This document shows, piece after piece, positions 8,375 through 57,522 of a stretch of DNA of 64,000 bases (within the stretch, counting starts at the first letter, position 1; each line of letters begins with the position of its first letter). The stretch comes from Eudorina sp. 2006-703-Eu-15 (lineage: Eukaryota; Chlorophyta; Chlorophyceae; Chlamydomonadales; Volvocaceae). The stretch lies in assembly GCA_003117195.1 (NCBI GenBank), contig BDSI01000009.1, positions 1,654,594 through 1,718,593 of the forward strand, read 5' to 3'. The notes below the pieces were generated by a model. That model searched no databases. It saw nothing but the letters and a program-made list of their open reading frames with translations, and was not told where the DNA came from. A program made the position numbers and the translations under genes.

Positions 8375-9696
8375 ATGCCCTCGGTTCTGGACAAGGGCCC
8401 AGTGGCCAGCATCCTCTTCGAGATGCGGACCTGGCTACGCTGCATGCTGCCGTACACGCCGTACGTGGCGCCCTTCTACCCCACGCCAGACTCGGTGGGT
8501 CTGCCGCGCCGGGGCGCTGCGGCGGCGGCGTCACTGCCGCCGCCACCGCAACACCCTACACCCCTGCCTCCCTGCCTCCCCCACGCCCCGCAGGTGATCT
8601 CCCGGGTGTTGGATCTGACGGCGGTGGGCCCCGGCGACTGTCTGTACGACCTGGGCTGCGGCGACGGCCGAGTGCTGCTGGCGGCGGCGCGGCGCGGCGC
8701 GCGCGGTGTGGGGTACGAGCTGGATCCGGAGCTGGCGCGCGACGCAGTGGCGGCGGCGCGCGCCGCGGGGCTTGAGGCGCTGGTGCGGGTGGTGCGGGCG
8801 GATGCGGCCTCCGCGGACGTGAGCGAGGCCACCGTCATTGCGCTGTAGGTGGGGACGTGCTGGGGACTGGGTGCGGCCGACTGGGTGCGGGGGACTGGGC
8901 CTCGAGGCAGTCCCAAGACGACGCGCGGCGCGGCACCTCCGAGCCGGGGCCCCTAGGAGGGCTCCGTGTCCGCGTCCGCGTCAGGTAGCGGAGTAGCATC
9001 GGCCCCCAGCGCCCCGTTCCAGCGTTGAAAGTTCCGTGCCGTGCAGTACAGGCCCGTAGTCACGGCCGCAGCCCGTGGCTGCAGCTGCCGCGCGCGCGCA
9101 CCCGACTGCCCTGCCCTGGCCAGGAGGGGCCAGGCCGCCCGCATGCTCGTCGCGTGGGGTTCTTGCACCGTCGTTGCGGATCGGGCTGACCCCTCTCCCC
9201 CCTCGGGCCGCCAACTGACCTTCCCCGTCCCCCTTTCCCTGCATTACCTTCTCCACCCGCTTGCCTGCCTCTACTTCCGTACTTGATCCCCCAACTCCCT
9301 TAATCTTCCCAACGCCAGCAGCCGAGCAGCCACCACCCTCCACCCATTCGCTGTCCCCTCCCCGTCCCCGCCCCGTCCCTTCCCCATCCCTTCCCCATCC
9401 CCTCCCCATCCCCTCCCCGTCCCCTCCCCGTCCCTTCCCCGTCCCCTCCCCGTCCACTTCATCGCCTCGGTTCTGGGTTTCCTGTGTACGGCACCGGCCC
9501 TCCGGCCACCCGTGGGCGCAGCTACCTGTCCGACCACGGCAACAGCCGGCTGCTGTCGGCCGTGACGCCCTCCCTCCGCCCGGGTACCCGAGTGGCGTCC
9601 TTCTACTTCCCGGTAGGGCTGCCGGGCTGGCAGGAGCGGCTGGTCAGGACCGACCGGACAGACGGTCTGGCGGTGTACATCTACAAGGCGCCTTGA
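8375..9696 (+). CDS. FAM173-like class I SAM-dependent methyltransferase
   Basis: Three exons, 8375-8494, 8594-8844 and 9522-9696, give 181 residues. The seven-strand methyltransferase core is clear: a PFYPTPDSVISRVLDL lead-in, motif I YDLGCGDGRVLLAAARRG, an acidic strand-2 end GYELDP, and SEATVIALYLSDHGNSRL, where FAM173 and related bacterial enzymes have the VYL(T/L) strand. The tail SLRPGTRVASFYFPVGLPGW also matches the family. Animal FAM173 proteins are mitochondrial lysine methyltransferases; one modifies ATP synthase subunit c. The substrate here is inferred only, and no clear targeting peptide is visible. Codon CT|C is split by intron 2, and that intron carries a C-rich repeat. The gene converges on ARL16. 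Confidence 0.85.
9371..9452. repeat. C-rich 10-11-bp tandem repeat in methyltransferase intron 2
   Basis: Units of the form CCCC(A/G)TCCC(C/T)T repeat about eight times between the exons ending at 8844 and starting at 9522. The array is intronic and pyrimidine-rich on the coding strand. Confidence 0.7.
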
Positions 9697-15156: not shown

Positions 15157-15390
15157 TCCCTGCCGGGGGACCTGATCCTCCCTGCCGGGGGACCTGATCC
15201 TCCCTGCCGGGGGACCTGATCCTCCCTGCCGGGGGACCTGATCCTCCCTGCCGGGGACCTGATCCTCCCTGCCGGGGACCTGATCCTCCCTGCCGGGGGA
15301 CCTGATCCTCCCTGCCGGGGGACCTGATCCTCCCTGCCGGGGGACCTGATCGTCCCTGCCGGGGGACCTGATCCTCCCTGCCGGGGGGGA
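15157..15390. repeat. 22-23-bp tandem array in the presumed 3' UTR of the PP2C gene
   Basis: About ten near-identical head-to-tail units of the form CCTGATCCTCCCTGCCGGGG(G)GA. Units differ mainly by one G, so they are young or homogenised. The array lies between the phosphatase stop (15899) and the minus-strand TGTAA at 15019, so the transcript probably carries it. There are no spacers, so it is not a CRISPR array. Confidence 0.85.
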
Positions 15391-16864: not shown

Positions 16865-19800
16865 GCACTGCTCCCGTCGTACTGCGCTCTGCGCGCGCGC
16901 GTTGGTGCGCCTCACCTCCGTTCCAAAGATGACTTTGCCGTTCCTCAGGATCCGCACCCCGCTGTCGCCCACGTTGGCGATCTCCAGCTTCTTGCCCGGC
17001 TTCATCAGCGCCATGCACACCGTGCTGCTGCCCTTCAGGTAGGTGCGGTACTGCGGGTGCGGGCGGGGATGGCGGTATGAGATGGGTATGGAAAGTTGGT
17101 AGGGGGGCACACCGGGGTTGTATGGTGTCAAGCGAGTCCGAGCCGGCGGCAGCGGGGACGTGTCACCAAAACCGCTGCCGCATCAGTGAGGCCGCCCACA
17201 CGGGGGCCGACACGAAGCAGTGCGCGACCGGGCGCGAATCTGCATGCACCTGCGCCGCCGCCGCCGCCGCGTCACGCGGCTGGGCTGCTGCGAGCGGCGA
17301 GTGTCAGGGAGCCCCCCGGGGGCATCGTCGGTGGGTGTGGCACCGACTCCGGCGCAGCAACTGGCGGCGAACATCGGTCGAGGAGGCGGTAAGCCCCCTT
17401 CCCCCGGGTAGAGAGTCAGACGATCATCAACTGGGGGGGCACCGACCCGTGCTCCCGGCCCATTGCACCCGGCCCACCTGCGCGTAGCGGATGATATCCT
17501 GTGCGGACATGGCCCCCCGGGCCGCCTCGTACGCGTCCGCGGCGTACCGCATGAGCGTCCTGAGCACGTGGAGGCGGCGGCGGGAGGTATGCGAAGGGGG
17601 CGTGAGGGAGCTCAGGAGTAGAGGCAAGCACGGCAATCGAATGGGCGGCGGATAAGAGAAGGGGGAAGGTTCAACGAAGTTGCGACGGAGGGCAGCCCTG
17701 CTTTTCGCATGGCACAATAGTGGCGCGCACACCCCCGCGCCGTCGATCCTCGCGCGCCACTGTGCGATGCGAGCAGAAGGGCCGTCCTCCGTCGCAACTC
17801 CGCTGAACCTTCAATCCTGGCGCGCGTGCCCCTGGGCTCCCTGCACCAGCTCGAGGACTGGAGTGAGCGAGGGGGCAGCAGCTTCAGCAACCTCTTAAGC
17901 GTCGCTCTCAGGCGACTTGGCGGCTGTCCTGCTGGCCACGTGCTCATGTCGGTCCAGCAACGGTCGGCCTCGGGCCAGCGCCTCGCTTTCCCGTGCAGTC
18001 CTCGGAGCCAGGCCGCACTAGACCTCTTGGAGGCCTCTCCACCGCCCCAGACCCAGCCGCTGCCCGTGCCGCTGCCCGTGCCGCTGCCCGTGCCGCTGCC
18101 CGTGCCGCTGCCCGTGCCGCTGCCCGTGCCGCTGCCCGTGCCGCTGCTCATGCCGATACCCATGCCGGTGCTCATGCCCGCGCCGCTTGTGGTGCCTGGT
18201 CCCGCTCGGTCACAATCAACTCACCGGGGGTACTCCGCGGGGTCGATGCCCTCGTCCGCCCAGCCGCTGACGCCGTCGGCCACACCCACACCGCCCAGCC
18301 CCACGCGGCTGATGAAGTAGGCGTCCTGGGGGTGAGAGGGTGAGAGGGACAGCGACCCAGCCGGGCGCACGCAGGGGATGACGAGCAGAGTCGGCGGGAA
18401 ACGACGGCGCCGGTCGCGGCAGTGAAGTGCGCGCGGCCGCGACAGACAGCGCGACACAGAGCAACGGAGAGGCAGGCAGGCAGGCAGGCAGGCGGGCAAG
18501 CAGGCAGAGGAGGAGGCAGGCCCAGGCCGGTGCTGCGACGCGATTTGGGTACTGCAGTGATCCGCTGCAGGCCCTGCAACCCCCAAATCGCGATCACTGC
18601 AGTGGCAGCGGAACGCACGGGCCCAACGGCAACAACGCGGAGAGGCGCGCAGCAGGCAGGGTGCACACGGGGCTGCTCGCGAGGGCGGCCAGACCCAGCC
18701 CAGCCCAGCCCAGCCCAGCCCAAGCCCCCCTCACCTCCCCGCCCTTGTCGACCTTGTCCACGTGTGGGATCATGTGCGCGCCCGCCACCAACCGGACGCA
18801 GCCCGGCGGCAGGGGGGGCGCCGCCGCAAAGGAGCCGACCAAGCCGCTGAGCAGCCCTGTGAGCAGACCCATGCCGCTGGTCCCCGCAACCGGCGCGGGC
18901 GCGATCACCGCCGACAACAGCGAGGTCTGTGCCGCCCCGTTGGCCCCGCGAGGCTCGTCGGTGCCGTTCGTCGCATCCGGTGTGCTGCCCGCGCCCGAGC
19001 GGCTCTGCGACTCCGGCGTCTTTGCTGCCGCCGCGGCCGCCGCAGCCGCCGCCTTCCGCAGCTGCTCTGTGAGCCCACTGCCGACTGTCCCCAGCCCCGA
19101 AACCAGATTGCTTGCGAGCTGTGTGACGGTCGGCTGCAGACCCGGGGCAGCGGCGGCGCTGCCGCCGGTGCCGGCCTCGCCGTTGGCCTGCCCGTCGAGC
19201 TTGGGCAGCTGCTGCAGCAGCCGCGCCGCCGTCTCCGCCAGCGCCTCCGGCGACAGGCCCAGCGCCGCGGCGTTCTGCTGCAGCGCCTGCACCGCGGCAC
19301 GTGTCTGCTCGATCGCCTGGGCCGCCTCCAAGGCAGCATTGCGCGCGGCAGCGACGGGATCGACCTGCAAGCACAGGCAGGGGTAAGAGCGCAGGAGTAG
19401 GCAGGGAGTTTGGGTACCGGGGGTAAGGGATTATGGCAGGGATTATCGCAGCAGATGACATCGGAAGTGATGGTCACAGCCCGCGGTGTCAGCCCGGTGG
19501 CCCCGGGCATCATACCACATATCAGGGACAGGACTGCGTCATACAACCCATCGTATGACTTCGGCAACCTGCGCTGTATCCTCAATGGGTTGCGTGAGGG
19601 AGAACAGGCGCAATGCGCATCCCGTGCTACACGCACACTCACACTCACTTCTAGCGGCTCAGTTTTTTACACTCGCAAGACACACATTTGTGGGAGGGCA
19701 GGATTTGAGGGAGGGCAGCCCACCGGCAGACGAATGATTCCTTATTCGTACACCGTACCTGCGAGTCAGCCGACGCCCCGGACGCTGGCACCAGCGACAT

Positions 19801-37892: not shown

Positions 37893-40787
37893 TCAGAGTG
37901 CGGCCGCCCGCGAAGCCTCTTGGAGCTGCTGCTGCAGCAGCTGCCGACGCCGCTGCTCTTGCTGGCGCTCGAGCTGGTACTGCTGCCGTATCGACTGCAG
38001 CTCCGAAACCAGCTCGGGAAAACTGGGTCTCGCTTCCGGGCTGCGGTCCAGGCAGCGAGCCACCAGATGCCGCACGGGTCCGGGCGTTGGCGGCCGGCGG
38101 CCGTCGGGTCCCGGCCACACCAGCTGTAGGCCGCCCACGGTATGGCCCAGAAGCACCTGGGCGCTGTACGGCAAGAGGAAAGCGACCCATGGGACCGGGG
38201 GGGGGTCAGACAGCTTGATGTGTATTCAGGGCCGACGCGCAGTAACCCACGCTCACGTCGCAGCGGAGGACCAAGACATGGCTCCCCCACGCGTGGCAGG
38301 TAGCATCCACGCATAAGATCTTGATGTCGTGTTGCCGTACATGGCAACAATTCCCGAGAACCCCCCAGGCCACCCGCAACCATGCCCGAGGCTATATCAC
38401 AGTTTACATCACAGCCAGGAGCTCCGCAACTGCCCCCAGCCCCAGCCCCAGCCCTACCCCGCGAGCCTGCACCGGCCCACACCATCCCAATGCCCTCCTG
38501 GCCTCCAGCGCCCTCCTCCCGACCCTTCCAGACGCGGTTCCGACCCGCGGGTCGACATCCCGACCCGCGGGTCGACATCCCGGAGCCGCCCCACCCACGC
38601 ACATGTGGTATTGGTGGTACGGCGCCGACCCCACAAACAAGTGGTAGCACAGCGCCCCAAATGCGTGCGTGTCCACCCGCTCCAACATCTCATGTGTCAC
38701 GTCTGCGGGCTCCAACTTGAAGCACTCGGGCGCCATGTACGACACCGCGCCCCAGCCGGCCGCGTTGAACGCCAGCTGGCTGGCGTGCTCTACTGGGTTG
38801 ACGAGCCCGTACAGCGTCAGCTTGCATCGGAGCGCCTGCAGCGCCGTCACCGCCGCCGCCGCGGCTTGCAGGCCATCCGAGGATGCGACCCCGGATCGTG
38901 GCTGTGTGGCTGAGGAGGAAGGTTGGGAGAGTGCAGCTGCTGCTGGCGATGACGGGAGCGGCGGAGTGGTGGCGGCGGAGGCGGCGGCGGTGTCGTCATC
39001 GGCAGGCACCATCAGTACGGAAACCGGAGTGAGGGCGCCGTGGTGCACACCCAGTCGGTGCAGTGCAGCGACCGCCTGGGCCACCTGCGGTGGGGACCCG
39101 AAAGCAGGTGTGTTGATTAGGAGACCAACCCACCCGACCCGATCCAACCCGACTCGGGCGCGGCGTGTGTGGACATCAGTATACACCTTTGGCACATGCT
39201 ACCTGACATATGGCGGTCAATACATATATGTAGTGGTCCAGCAAAAAGAACCGCTCGATGAATGTGTGCAGATAGCTACAGGACAGGGCGTGACGCTGGC
39301 CAAGGGCTAACGGAAAGACCGCCGAAGCACTCTCCCCCGGATACCGGGGAGAGGGGCGTAAGTGGTCTCTGTCCTCTCGCTCGCTTGTCAACCAACTGAT
39401 CCCCATTCTGGAAAACGAAGGACAGCCAGGTATTGTGCAGAGTGCAGAACCGGTTCGACATCGAGGATCGAGACATCGATTCGATTCGCTGTGTGAATGT
39501 ATGTTGGTTCCAAAGGATGGTGATTCGATGGGTGACCGGTTCGACAGGAGACATCGATCAATCGGCTTGAGCTTAAGCGGGACTAAAGCCGCAGACGGAA
39601 GGGCGCTGTTTTCCCATCTTGCCGGAAGCCTTTCGCCGTGGCGGGTTTTTCGCCAGGCGCCGCTGGCCCAGACGCAGCGATGACTAAGCGCAGGGCCAGG
39701 CAGGAGCAACAGGGTTTCGCTGCACAGGAACAAAGCAGGGGCATATCACATGCCGTTCGGGAAGAATGGCTCTACTCAATCGTGCATTTTGCGATTTTGT
39801 CCGTCTTAATCCGCCATGTGCAGAGGCAAAACGCAAAAGTAGGTATCGAAAGCAGGTCTTTACACTAGTTCTTTACCTCAAGTGCATACAAAAGAAGCGT
39901 GTCAATCAGCTCCTGCGTGCTTCGTCGATTTTGGATGCACTGCATTATTTGCAGCAGGTTTCCTGCAGCAATCGGAATGAAAAGTCAGCGTCTGGTTACA
40001 AACAAATATTACTGATAGCGAGAATGGCCGCACCGTGCACGTCCGGCAGTTCGTCAATGCACCCCAGAAGTTGGTGACCATCAAATGTCGTGAGATGTGC
40101 CATGGCCGCGGCAATATCTGCGTTTTGCGCGGCCAACCGCGAGCTTGCACCGACGGACAACGACGCACTGCTTGGTACGCATGGGCCGCTGATGCACATC
40201 GACACATCCTTGTGTTCGACAGGATTAGGTGAATTAATCGCTGTACTTATCGCTGGGAAACTGCTCCACTGTACAAGTCGTCCGCTTCTGGCCTCGGACG
40301 TGCCACCGTGACTGCGGCCTTGTGCACCGGATTGAAGCAGCTTCGAACTTGATGAACGCTGCTGAAGAAGCGAAGGCGTTGACAATAGCTCGATAGAAAA
40401 CGCCAACCTCCGTGCAAGACCGCCGTGAACAGCACGCCCAACCAGTCGCTGTAGCTTCTCAACCGCCTCATCGCTAAGGTAGTTCCTGGTTGCGATGTTG
40501 ACACTGACTGGGCGCGATGATGCATCCGAGCCACCGATGATTATGCCGGGGCACGAAATAATTCCACTATCGCCGGCTACAGCGAGAGCCTTCAGTCGAA
40601 CCGCTTGAAAATAATGACTCGTATCTTCAGGTTGACGACAGGTTTCGGCGGCATTACAATCTGCAGCTGCTGGCTGCTGTACCGCCAGTATTTCCGCCGA
40701 AGGGGATTTGGCCTGAAAGGGGCGCTCCTCTGTTTCGGAGTAGCGTTCATCTGGCGCCTTGATGTGCGCACTGTAGCAGGTCCCCAT
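37893..40787 (-). CDS. N-myristoylated protein kinase-like protein, probable pseudokinase
   Basis: Resolved exons: 40787-40013, 39962-39877, then 39275-39203, 39084-38603 and 38163-37893. Exons coding the N-lobe between 39275 and 39877 are not resolved. The protein opens MGTCYSAH: Gly2 with Ser6 fits N-myristoylation and Cys4 could be palmitoylated, so membrane anchoring is predicted. The C-lobe is clear: QVAQAVAALHRLGV, SYMAPECFKLE, VDTHAFGALCYHLFVGSAPY, VRHLVARCLDRSPEARPSF. The catalytic loop reads HHGALTPVSVLM instead of HRDxKxxN, and the DFG position reads LYG, so the catalytic and metal-binding Asp are both missing. A Gln-rich coiled coil (QYQLERQQEQRRRQLLQQQL) ends the protein. An Ala/Ser/Pro insertion lies between the catalytic loop and the activation segment. 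Scaffold or signalling function is inferred. Confidence 0.72.
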
Positions 40788-43308: not shown

Positions 43309-45216
43309 CTACGCCTGTGCCTGCTTCAGCAGCGCCGCCTCCACGCGCTTCTGGTGCAACTGGTACAACTGCGCGAAGCTGACCAATGAGGATCGAATCT
43401 CCATGAATCCCTGTGCCATGCTCTCCCCGCCAGGGAGTTGGCTCAGCCACGCACGGACCTGCTCGTCCTCGCTGCTGCTGAAACCGCCGCCGCCGCCGCC
43501 GCCGCCGGCACCGCCCCCCATTCCGTTGATGGTGCCACTGCTGCCTGCCGCCGGCATACCCAGCCCCCCGTTCTGTCCGGCGCCGCTGGCCGCAGAGGCT
43601 ATCCCCGGCCGAAGCCCAGCCGTCGGCGGCTTGCCGGCGGCAGAATGGACGCCTCCGGCCGGCGGCTGCACCAGCGGCAACACTTTGACCAACCCGCCTC
43701 CGCCCGCGCCCATTCCCGCGGTGTTCAGGCCACGGTGCTGCCCCGCGGAGACGCCCCCTTGCGCAGCCATAAGGCCGCCTCCGCCTCCCCGCCTGCCATC
43801 CACAGTGTCTGGGGTGCTGCACGTGGTGTTCAAGACATGTGGGTGCATAGCCCACGACTCCAGGTCCCCGCCAGGCGCTCCAGTCCGCTGTAACGACGTT
43901 GCGTGCGCGTGTACGACTGCGTACGACGCGTCCAGACCCGGCGGGCCTTGCGTCTCCGCTGCTGCAGCAGCGGCGCCGCCGCCGATTAGGCCGACGCCGA
44001 CGCCGTCGGCGGTGACGACGGGCGGCGCACCGCCGCCTTGCGGCGCCCCCATCCCTGGACCGAGCGCCCCGAAGCGCGTGGCTGGCTGATCCAACCGTGT
44101 GGCAAAAGATGTCGATGCAGGGTCGAACGAATCCTTGGTCACGAGCTTGTTGAGGATCACATTGTCTATGTCGCTGCGGCTGAGCGTCTGCGAGCGGCAA
44201 CGAGCCGAGACCCGGTGGTAGGGGGTTCGTCGGCAAAGACCCGGGTGCCGAGGTCCTGGCGCCAAATGCCAGTGACTGGTGTGTTCAGCAGAGTAACCCA
44301 TCCGACCCAACAAGTCAAGTGTGTTCAGCGAGAAACCCGCCAGGTGAATGTATCTACAAACCCTTATACATCCCCCCCTCAACTTTCGTATAATGCCCCA
44401 GCTGCTGCATTCCGTTGAAGGATTCCCATCTCTCTCTGGGACCTCCGCAGCGTGGCGATTCCAGCCGGCACCCAATCGATGTCTCTGCCTTGGCCTGGGC
44501 CTCCAGTAAGCACGCCATGCGTCCCCCGAGGCTTCTTCAGCCGCACGGCGGGCCACAGCATCTTGCTTGGGCTACACCCTCGGTCCCCGTTACACCCCAC
44601 ACGCCCCAAGTCCGCCCACTCACCCCTTGGCACAGCCGTTCGTCCGCTAGGTGCGCCCGGGCCGTGAAGATCACCAGATGGGCCCGGTAGTCCCGGGCAT
44701 GCTGCTCCCGGTCCAGGTACGGTGCCGACTGCCGGGAGGTAAGGATCGCCCAGGGCGGCAGGTATGCGTAGGGTGGTGTCCAATCGGGACGGCATGGCCC
44801 GCGTCCATGCTCGTGCCGGCGGGGCGGGGGGGGGCCCTCGTGTGCACACCCGCACAGGTGCGCTGGCGGACCCGCGCGCCTCCCCCCTTCCGCCCGCGTT
44901 GCTGAGACCAGCCATGAACTCACGGCGGGTCCGGCCCAGCGACCCGGCCCATAGGTCCGACAAGGCGCCACCGCCCAACATCGGTGCAGCCCACGCGCCC
45001 GCGTCAGCCTCCATTGAGGCAATCGCCGCTGGAGACCGCGCTCACCTGGTGAACGACATAATGTCCGAAACACAGCAGGTTGTCCAGGCTGCTAGGCTTG
45101 AACGAAGGTGGCATGACCTGCTGGAGCATGCCCGGGCCACACGCCAATGGCGTCCCCGGCAGCAGCAGCTGGTTGACGGCGGCAGCGGAGGCGCGCTGCA
45201 ACGGGGTGGGGGACAT
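43309..45216 (-). CDS. Multi-exon open region, possible capsid scaffold part of the viral-like protease gene
   Basis: The terminal exon 44187-43309 is clear: acceptor GCCGCTCGCAG, then TLSRSDIDNVILNKLVTKDS, a Gly/Ala-rich disordered stretch, and a helical end with SSSEDEQVRAWLSQLPGG and FAQLYQLHQKRVEAALLKQ before the stop. An exon ending at the GTGAGT donor at 44624 reads YAYLPPWAILTSRQSAPYL then DYRAHLVIFTARAHLADERL. Another exon ends SSLDNLLCFGHYVVHQ at a donor near 45059, possibly opened by ATG 45216. Exons between 44188 and 44623 have competing frames and are unresolved. Herpes-type capsid proteases are fused to disordered scaffolds with a C-terminal helix; this layout would fit, so it may be the C-terminal half of the gene at 46267-47909. 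That link is inference. Confidence 0.42.
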
Positions 45217-46266: not shown

Positions 46267-47909
46267 CTGCAGCTCCGCTATTCGCTGCACTAGCACCGGC
46301 GGTGCCGGCACTCGCGCCACCTTCTCCATCGCGACAACGCCATGTCCCAGATGCGCGATCGCAATCACCTGTCACCGCACACACCGGCACACAGGCCAAC
46401 GGGAACCGCCGGCCCCCTCGATTCAGTTCATTCATGCGTGCAGCTCTGCGCGCTCTGCTCAGGCCGCACGGTGCTTGCGACCCACATCGCAACGACTGAC
46501 AAGAGAGGCATGCATCCAGCCTGTAATGGCGCCACGACCCCGAGGTGCCCCTCCACAAGCACAGAACCCCCTCGCCTCCGCCAGCGTCCCCACCTTGCTC
46601 TGGTCAGGCACGGTCCGCTTGTACTTCCGCTGCACGGGCGCCAGGTACGCGCCGCGCGTGGACGGCTCCGTGACAAAGTCAAAGGTGATGAGCTCAAAGT
46701 CGTCATCCACGAAGACGCACTTCGAGCTCGGGTCGGAGCGCAACGACGCCCAGCCGCGGGATGACACCCCGAGCTTGACACCCTGGGGGCAGCAGGCGCA
46801 CATGGCGCCGACATGAAGCTCACCACAGCAGCGCCCGGTATGACGGCAGGTAGGTGGCCTAAGCTATGACCGCTGAGTGACACCGGGTGGTGTTACATGC
46901 TGGCTACAGCGGGTAGGGCTCGCGATCGCATGTAACCCTCGGTGCGGCATTTAGCTGACAGATGGCCCAGGAGCCGCCTTCGCACGCGTTTTTATGTTAC
47001 GTACGGGATGGTCCGGGGGATAGGCCTGTGCAGGACGCAGATTCTGAGTTTAGGGGGCCGCTGGGAGCAGGGCCGGGACCGCTGGTGTGCGAATCGGTAA
47101 GGTGCAAGGCGCAGCTTGCGAAAGAAGCTGAGAGGTGGCTTACTCACTCGTGAGTAGAGTTCCCACAGGAGCAGCCCCGAGGGAGTGGGCAGCACCTCGA
47201 TCGTGCCCCACAACTGGTCGCCTTTCCACGTCACCTCGAGCACCTGCCCAGGGGAAGCGAAGAGCGTACGCTTACAGCGTGTCGACGTGCAGGTTGAGAA
47301 CAGGCTTCGAGGAGATCACCGCGGACGCGCTTCGCTGGATTGGGAGGTCTCGACTGCTCCCCTTACGCCCCCTCTGTCCCCTCCCGCAAACTGGCGACGA
47401 CCATCATCCGGCCTGGCGCTCCCCCCAGAAGCGCCGGCTAGATGGCCTCCGCTAAGCGCAGCCTTCGCACCTGATGGCTAACATTGGGGAGATTTAGGCA
47501 CTTGAAGTATTTTGACGCGTAGTTCGGGTGGTCGAGTTCCCCCAGCGCCGTCCCTTGAATAATGTGCTCCGACTCGAACCTGGAGACCTCCCTCTCCAGA
47601 ATATGCTGCAAGTAGTGACCATTTGTATAAACTCTTCAGTTTCGGCCAGGGAGACGGCACTTTCTCTGAAGGCAGCCCTAAGGAAGTAGGAAAACGACAT
47701 GGCAGCCCTTCTGCAGTCGACGCACCTTTGGGTAAACACGCTTGTTGTTGTTGCGAGTATTCGCACGTGCGAAGATACCTGAACAGAGAGGACAAACCTT
47801 AACTCGGACGCTCAAAGGAATACCCAGAAACTCGTGGCCGACTGCCCTCACCATGCACATAAAGCTTCCCTCCGTTCAGAGCAATAGAGCGGTCATAAAG
47901 ACGTTTAAG
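46267..47909 (-). CDS. Prohead (capsid maturation) protease, T4 gp21 type, split by introns; ends unresolved
   Basis: Six exons close in phase (211 codons): 47909-47852, 47778-47726, 47605-47471, 47243-47148, 46782-46594, 46368-46267. In order they read LNGGKLYVHG|IFARANTRNNNKRVYPK|HILEREVS, then GELDHPNYASKY and NLPNVSHQ, VLEVTWKGDQLWGTIEVL with LPTPSGLLL, GVKLGVSSRGWASL, and DDDFELITFDFVTEPSTRGA. These are the consecutive blocks of gp21-type head-maturation proteases; His of NVSHQ and Ser of GVSSRG are the expected catalytic residues. Such enzymes cleave scaffold and capsid proteins inside assembling icosahedral heads. The last exon (GHGVVAMEKVARVPAPPVLV) ends at a donor, so the protein continues. 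The first exon was not found. Introns have canonical GT-AG ends, so the gene is carried in a nuclear, spliced form. Confidence 0.85.
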
Positions 47910-47930: not shown

Positions 47931-48818
47931 TCAGAAACTGCTTCGTTTGGCAGGTCCAAGGGAACTCGGGGAGCCGTTTGCCCACCTCCGCTCGGCTAAG
48001 CTCAGTATGGTCATCAGGAACGAGAGGGGCAGAGCAGCACGGAAAGCAACTGAATCCCATTGCGGCCCTGCCCGTGGTCCTATGCTTAACGACGTCATGT
48101 TGTGGAGGCCATATCCCCTTCTCCGAGGTCCTGACAGCCCTCCTCTGCCCCCCAGAATGATCTTAAAAAGTTCTATGCCTAGCTGAAAGGGCTTCAACTC
48201 CAGGAACAATAAATTAAGCACCGTGACGCTGCAACGATTTCCTTGAAATTATTCCTATGTCACTGAAGCTTGTAACATGTCATTTGACTAAGATTTCGCA
48301 AAATTGTTACGACCTTCCTCCTGTCTTACCTTTGAGGAGGTGGTAGTACGGCAGCTAAAGTTTCATAAACAAAAATGCCGGAAAACAACGCAAGGTAAAC
48401 TTGATATGTTTGCCGTATCCTGCTCGCAAGCTCAGATGGATAGAGCGCTGTCTTTGGTGCTCCACGTCGTGGTTTGCCTAGCTTGCTGTCAAAGACTTTC
48501 AGGAAAGTTTTTGCAAGTTTTCCGTGTACAGGCCCAAATGCTGTAGTGGCTTCGTTGATCGTGTTGTGTGAGCCAATCCGGTTTGCGCGCTTGCCTTTCG
48601 CTCGTGCCCACGCGGTCCACCAGGCCTGCATGCCTCACACAAGCCCGATTCTTCCTAATGGTCACCTGTATGCCATCTGGTGTTGTGCGGGTCACGCTTT
48701 TCCGCCGTTGGGGAGTAGGCCGGGCTGGTCTTCGAGTTCCCGTCCGCCCGCGACCTCGCAGCCCCCGACCCCGCAGCCCCCGACCCCGCTGCGGCACCAC
48801 CCACGGCACCGTCGCCAT
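47931..48818 (-). CDS. Uncharacterised three-exon gene next to the viral-like protease
   Basis: Exons 48818-48666, 48625-48330 and 48228-47931 close in phase and give 248 residues. Donors include CAAAG|GTAAGA. The N-terminus is Arg/Gly-rich (RGRGLRGRGLRGRGRTGTRR), then AWWTAWARAKGKRANRIG, a helical middle (KLAKTFLKVFDSKLGK, YQVYLALFSGIFVYETL) and hydrophobic segments (LNLLFLELKPFQLGIELF, ALPLSFLMTILSLAER). It stops only 21 bases before the first resolved protease exon. Base composition is less GC-rich than the cellular genes. An Arg-rich tail plus a folded body would suit a virion or DNA-binding protein, but I do not recognise the family. Confidence 0.42.
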
Positions 48819-56233: not shown

Positions 56234-57394
56234 CGATGCCGCTGCGCACGCAGTGATTCAATTCTGAAGCTTAGCGCGCTCTTGCAGGTTGTCCAAGGCC
56301 GCTGACCCTTCTGGCGTAGAGCCGAGTCGCGCCTAAGCAAGAAAAGTGCTGGATACAGTGACGTTGAGCTGGTAAAATTCACATGCAGAAAGCGATGCTG
56401 CCTCAAGCCGAGGCTCAATGGCAGCGGTTGCCTAGTACCAAAACGATTGACAAACGAACCGTCTTAAGCTTGCGCGCTTTGGGCACAGGAATGTTCTAAC
56501 AGTCAAGTAATTGAAATTATGGCATCTGAACAGAGTTACCTACAAAACAAACACGTCAAAGCCGTTCTGTATCTGGGATAAAAAGCAACACGATGAAACT
56601 ACCCCAATTCATTCGTGTGAAGCCATGCCGCCAACGCGCTAAACTACTATGTGCATAGCAGTTTAGATGGTGTTTGTCCTCACTTTGCATAGCCGTACAC
56701 GCTCTGGATCTATCCTGGCATTGCATGCATGCAGAGGTCCTGCTATATGACTAGCTACAACCTCGAAACTCCATGCGTGGCTGCCATCGTCACTCCTTAA
56801 GTCCTGCTGGCGGCCGTCGCGCCTCTACCTCCTCGTGGCCATTCGCTGGAGCTGTTGCTCATACACGGCCTTGCCATTTACCAGTTCGGCGTCGTGTCTG
56901 ATCCACCTGCCTGCCCTCCCTTACCCACTTGCCATGCGGCGACAGCTTGGCGGCAAGCTCCCAGCGCCCCAGGCTGTTCCGCGCATTCCTCAGATCTGCT
57001 TAGATCCTTACACGCATAGCCGCACGTGGGACACCTGCAGCACTGTCTCGCTGCGCAAGAGTAGAAACCGTGCCTGTCGCGGTCAGGGGCGGCGACACGC
57101 CGTATGAAAAGGTACCGAAAGCTGCCATTCCGCGTTGAAGAAGAGCGCTCACCACCGTTGTTGTGCGCACAACACGAGGATGCGGCTTTGAGGGACCCGC
57201 GGACCCCGCTCCGCATATCGCATTGCTAGGGTGGATTAGTTAGGCGGCAGTTGACCGTCGCGCTGGTGGTTGATGAAGTTTGTTCCTCTTAGTCCGTTGG
57301 TGGGCGGTTTCGACTTGCGGTCCTCGCCCCGTGGGAGGGTCATGAGGGTGCTCGGCCTGCTGGCGGGCATGGACCCTGTCTGCCGGAGGGTGGG

Positions 57395-57522
57395 TTGTCA
57401 TGCGCTGCAGGGAGGGAGGGTGGGTGGGTGGGTGGGTTGTCATACGCCGCCGGGGGGGAGGGAGGGTGGGTCGTGGGTTATCATGCGCCGCAGGGAGGGA
57501 GGGTGGGTGGCTGGGTGGGTTG
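57395..57522. repeat. About 40-bp G-rich minisatellite
   Basis: Three imperfect units begin TTGTCATGCGCTGCAGGGAG or a close variant and continue into (GGGT)n. The GGGT and GGGA runs on the plus strand could form G-quadruplexes. Confidence 0.7.

Follow-up and report, generated by a model that had tools for sequence, protein, structure and literature searches.

A ten-exon protease gene in Eudorina

The stretch analysed here, henceforth the window, comprises 64,000 nucleotides of the volvocine green alga Eudorina sp. 2006-703-Eu-15 (contig BDSI01000009.1, positions 1,654,594 to 1,718,593; all coordinates below are counted from its first letter). On its minus strand, at 48060-43309, lies a spliced gene for a serine protease of the Peptidase S77 family (PF03420), to which the head-maturation protease gp21 of phage T4 also belongs. 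The initial annotation of this DNA had joined six exons (47909-47852, 47778-47726, 47605-47471, 47243-47148, 46782-46594 and 46368-46267) into such a protease. We found that all six are real: the introns between them are of the GT-AG type, the phases agree at the junctions, and splicing leaves 211 codons in a single open frame. The gene is longer than had been proposed, however, and the six correspond to exons 2-7 of ten. Exon 1 and exons 8-10 were added by aligning the Volvox africanus and Pleodorina starrii proteins to the window. The full model, which is based on homology and splice signals, encodes 613 residues and has nine GT-AG introns, no internal stops and a TAG stop codon. A chance origin of the joined frame is excluded by its end-to-end alignment with independently predicted proteins and transcript open reading frames of other algae.

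Exon 1 (47986-48060) carries the start codon and a Cys-rich N-terminus (MGFSCFPCC...) that may act as a lipid-anchor signal; its counterpart in the proteins of Volvox africanus and Pleodorina is residues 1-25, and it ends at the donor GAG|gtgggc. The protease domain begins in exon 2 (47852-47909) and takes in exon 3 (47726-47778), with the GIFARANTRNNNKRVYPK block, exon 4 (47471-47605), which we aligned to the solved T4 gp21 chain 5jbl_A and which contains the likely catalytic H88, in GELDHP, as well as H106, in NVSHQ, exon 5 (47148-47243), and exon 6 (46594-46782), which contains S146 of GVSSRG (the likely nucleophile) and D174 of TFDFV. Exon 7 (46267-46368) encodes the IAHLGHGVVAM segment, kept in Chlorophyceae; a TGA within the longer match that the genome search gave for this exon falls on the intron side of the acceptor. 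The remainder is made up of exon 8 (45046-45195), with a linker and LDNLLCFGHYVVHQ, exon 9 (44624-44728), with the APYLDREQHARDYRAHLVIFTARAHLAD helix region, and exon 10 (43309-44187), with the DIDNVILNKL segment, a low-complexity linker, the C-terminal helix and the stop codon. One locus for the protease gene was found in the Eudorina genome by a search that scored best candidates only, while a Pfam-family search of the same genome gave no candidates and was uninformative, as it detected none of its 14 controls.

Fold and catalytic residues

The joined six-exon protein matches PF03420 with an E-value of 6e-22 (78.5 bits, against a curated cut-off of 27) and PHROG 207 (head maturation protease) with an E-value of 9.8e-43. 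All ten algal proteins scanned exceeded the Pfam cut-off; none of the algal proteins had a match in NCBIfam. The predicted structure of the Volvox africanus ortholog superposes on solved T4 gp21 at 1.8 Å over 142 residues, the comparison that the initial annotation had proposed. By Pfam score, gp21 fold and His-Ser-Asp triad, the algal protein is a member of Peptidase S77, i.e., an intact gp21-type head-maturation protease encoded by a volvocine nuclear gene with spliceosomal introns, just as had been suggested from the DNA itself.

All 46 algal and all 25 phage rows of the alignment have the complete triad (H88, S146 and D174). The active-site residues first put forward were the Ser of GVSSRG and the His of NVSHQ. 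The former agrees with our data, S146 (the first Ser of that motif) being the likely nucleophile and D174 the third member of the triad. The latter is probably not catalytic: the position of H106 is kept as His in algae but is Ile in 3 of the 25 phage rows, all three T4-type, whereas that of H88 is His in every one of the 25, so that the catalytic His is most likely H88 of GELDHP. The solved chain 5jbl_A has Ala in place of both H88 and S146, as would fit an inactivated construct.

The enzyme domain shares 98.1% identity with the Pleodorina and V. africanus domains and 96.8% with that of Chlamydomonas reinhardtii, compared with 69-72% for the rest of the protein, meaning that the enzyme is under strong selection. 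Beyond this domain, the algal protein differs from T4 gp21 by a long C-terminal extension with conserved helices, and the helical segments are common to Chlorophyceae. Herpesviruses had been named as distant relatives, which holds at the level of the fold: herpesvirus assemblin, whose third catalytic residue is a His, has 10-16% identity to the algal protease. Given the distance of the herpes proteases in structure comparison, we rejected a herpesvirus origin. Separately, the herpesvirus protease alignments extended past the gp21 core to the conserved C-terminal helix (residues 300-321 of the P0126 model).

Distribution in green algae

We examined the best 120 of 318, 6057 and 2145 matches obtained in three homolog searches. 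Among the 120 listed from the 6057, all fully named organisms were green algae, ten species in total: Chlamydomonas eustigma, C. reinhardtii, C. schloesseri, Chlamydomonas sp. UWO 241, Gonium pectorale, Pleodorina starrii, Volvox africanus, V. carteri, Tetraselmis chui and Ostreobium quekettii. The three lineages looked up cover Chlorophyceae, Chlorodendrophyceae and Ulvophyceae, and Tetraselmis striata is a further carrier on our reading of a Joint Genome Institute code. Family members are transcribed, with MMETSP and transcript-assembly entries among the matches listed, and the same matches suggest that the gene is missing from other organisms. A prokaryote genome collection yielded 52 pattern matches and no relatives.

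The family has been recorded before. In the part of a 2021 Chlamydomonas protease inventory that we could consult, one sentence reports S77 as present in Chlamydomonas, absent from Arabidopsis and of unknown role (PMC8643629). That entry is surely the same gene family, with P0123 as the C. reinhardtii ortholog; the sentence gives presence only, and within it origin, distribution, triad and N-terminus are not treated. In a literature search that left aside most subscription papers, we found no published account of the origin, spread or N-terminus of algal S77.

Three further observations concern individual family members. Two C. eustigma proteins, P0002 (g3177; 337 residues) and P0129 (g3178; 432 residues), are consecutively numbered on one contig and are a tandem duplication. 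Four metagenome clusters (P0140, P0150, P0153 and P0154) hold 55-164 member sequences each, and represent an abundant, probably marine, prasinophyte-like carrier of the gene. Finally, V. carteri P0132 (VOLCADRAFT_90584) carries some 41 extra residues where exons 5 and 6 meet, an insert that all its near relatives lack and that is probably a gene-model error.

Phage relatives and phylogeny

Among 50,697 phage records, 2,476 matched the protease, every one with less than 60% identity and the best being that of Microcystis phage Mel-JY01. The closest viral sequences, with 38-47% domain identity, are gp21-type proteases of aquatic phages in the T4 superfamily (IMG/VR rows L015-L094 and Mel-JY01), which, unlike the algal gene, are intronless, encode about 170-210 residues and lie in head-gene clusters. 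Specifically, terminase, portal or capsid genes (“portal” being our reading of an unannotated protein) were found within about 6 kb of the protease in 77 of 80 related IMG/VR contigs.

The algal gene does not lie among portal, scaffold and capsid genes within the window. When 16 head-region proteins of two phages were compared with the window by tblastn, only the two proteases matched convincingly, and no HK97-type capsid, terminase or portal gene was found. The algal gene differs from that of T4 gp21 (PDB 5jbl) in being cellular, spliced and, within the window, without adjoining head genes. When the 15 kb on either side of the gene were scanned exon by exon against Pfam, nothing viral appeared and the sole match was the sub-threshold fatty acid desaturase described below, although such a scan is weak for split genes: as a control, the known protease gene was detected at 8.9e-4 only, below the cut-off, and in one of three frames. 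The same tblastn comparison gave a 26-bit match (E 0.022) at 38007-38090 to a small Mel-JY01 protein encoded beside its protease, which is likely due to chance.

The trees described here omit V. carteri P0132 (owing to its insert) and short fragments (e.g., P0013, P0018, P0026, P0034-P0036 and P0038). In a tree of 46 algal rows and 23 phage rows (omitting two long-branch phages, L008 and L012), the algae formed a single clade apart from the phages, with support of 99/99. With 36 algal and 38 phage rows (omitting 10 of the algae used before), the single algal clade had support of 100/98 and was nested inside aquatic phages. This nesting was not upheld once more phages were added, in the widest tree of 32 algal and 89 phage rows, which additionally omits four algal rows that are long or divergent (P0003, P0011, P0155 and P0161). 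The algal clade has a long stem, and its position beside or inside the phages differs between the latter two trees. Within it, a marine group that we label prasinophyte-like separates from a group of Tetraselmis, Ostreobium and Chlorophyceae, a split such as vertical descent would give. One protein, P0046, had at first been labelled as phage and was relabelled, its sequence being of algal type; under the phage label, the algal label needed two changes on a tree that preceded these.

The N-terminus

In T4, the N-terminal region of gp21 keeps the enzyme inactive, and a self-cut of nine residues inside the prohead activates it, according to the part of the source available to us (PMC9958956). We looked for such a segment within the first 15 residues, using a self-cleavage motif framed after the T4 review, L[LIVM]{1,2}[ED], and found it in 13 of 22 phage rows and 61 of 80 IMG/VR rows but in none of 34 algal rows. 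A looser version of the motif raised the phage and IMG/VR counts to 19/22 and 75/80, respectively. The N-terminal self-cleavage segment of phage prohead proteases is thus missing from the algae, and a Cys-rich N-terminus stands in its place: of the 34 algal rows, 27 have at least two Cys among residues 1-15, compared with 0/22 phage and 0/80 IMG/VR rows. Starts of the MGCGxS type were found in Tetraselmis and the prasinophyte-like group. Judged by its sequence, the algal start looks like an N-terminal lipid anchor, and the protease is probably both lipid-anchored and active.

Origin and possible role

We consider it likely that the green-algal gene goes back to a gp21-type prohead protease carried by a tailed phage of the T4 superfamily, or by a close viral relative, and was kept as a cellular serine protease. 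This favours the domesticated capsid protease, one of two readings offered by the initial annotation. It draws on the intact fold and triad, the ten exons, the Chlorophyta-wide orthologs forming one clade, the exchange of the N-terminus and a window devoid of capsid genes, all seen at the level of sequence. Its uptake would have been a single event that predates the divergence of the sampled green algae. In the phage, the N-terminal segment would serve as an active-site plug that the enzyme removes from itself inside the prohead; in algae, a start that is rich in Cys, and sometimes of the MGC type, would have taken the place of this plug and would be palmitoylated or myristoylated. The anchored enzyme might then carry out limited cleavage of a few substrates at a membrane, with its location or oligomer state taking over the control once exerted by prohead assembly. 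We infer that the enzyme is active, that it is anchored in a membrane and that its location controls it. The fuller proposal, that a captured phage protease whose plug became a lipid anchor now serves green algae as a membrane-bound, constitutively spliced, near-invariant serine protease for essential limited proteolysis, is more tentative, and we hold it at somewhat less than even weight.

Several observations weigh against this interpretation. In the widest tree, support for the algal clade was just 87, and the clade was sister to the aquatic phages rather than nested among them; moreover, most rows without a species name were assigned as algal from their sequence and tree position. The looser self-cleavage motif also occurred in 3 of 34 algal rows, an MG start was found in just 10 of 34 algal N-termini, early Cys were absent from 2 of the 34, and one early Cys was also present in 8 of 80 IMG/VR rows. 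The Eudorina start itself, MGFSCF, is a poor fit to what we take to be the usual myristoylation consensus, and both the motif and the Cys tests were devised after the sequences had been inspected.

The presence of this protease gene in an algal genome can be explained in other ways. One is that the donor was not a bacteriophage but a eukaryotic virus of the same realm, with an ancient transfer and the same later history; the long stem of the algal clade and its shifting place beside or inside the phages speak for such a source, which we nevertheless regard as unlikely. Less likely still is a domesticated antiviral factor that mis-cleaves algal-virus scaffolds or capsids. That capsid-module genes become domesticated in this way is plausible, and viral scaffold and capsid are the substrates of this family as described in the accessible part of the source (PMC9958956), yet the active domain is near-invariant among volvocines, unlike fast-evolving defence genes, and a membrane-type N-terminus has been kept.

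The second reading of the initial annotation, an endogenous virus, remnant or live (mirusvirus-like or tailed-phage-like), integrated at the locus, now appears very improbable. Head proteases are viral, and mirusviruses, in the portion of the source at hand, have virion genes that are rich in introns and insert themselves into the genomes of protists (PMC12768974). By contrast, we found orthologs in ten named species, domain identities of 96-98% among volvocines (98% to Pleodorina and V. africanus) and one locus in the genome, and phage head-region proteins matched the window convincingly only through the two proteases; the flank scan, weak as it is for split genes, points the same way. Contaminating phage DNA without algal flanks, which the initial annotation had itself raised as a pitfall, or an annotation artefact can be dismissed, given nine spliceosomal introns, algal flanks at a contig position above 1.6 Mb and orthologs in other algae.

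To our knowledge, head proteases serve viruses exclusively and normally work only within a closed prohead. Retention of one across green algae, with a near-frozen enzyme domain, implies that the cell found a use for it, and shows that an alga can carry a viral hallmark gene with introns without this signalling an endogenous virus. If the fuller proposal above is true, a capsid-protease fold was converted into a eukaryotic membrane protease. C. reinhardtii is a model with mutant collections and has an ortholog, XP_001697524, so the role of the domesticated capsid protease is directly testable.

Other features of the window

On the minus strand, 29458-29859 matches the fatty acid desaturase family PF00487 with 20.7 bits (cut-off 29.7) and may belong, as an exon, to an ordinary gene of the alga. 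Rfam gave no matches in the window. Minisatellite arrays were found at 15157-15387, 9353-9455, 18056-18171 and 57388-57522, with periods of 22, 11, 12 and 42.
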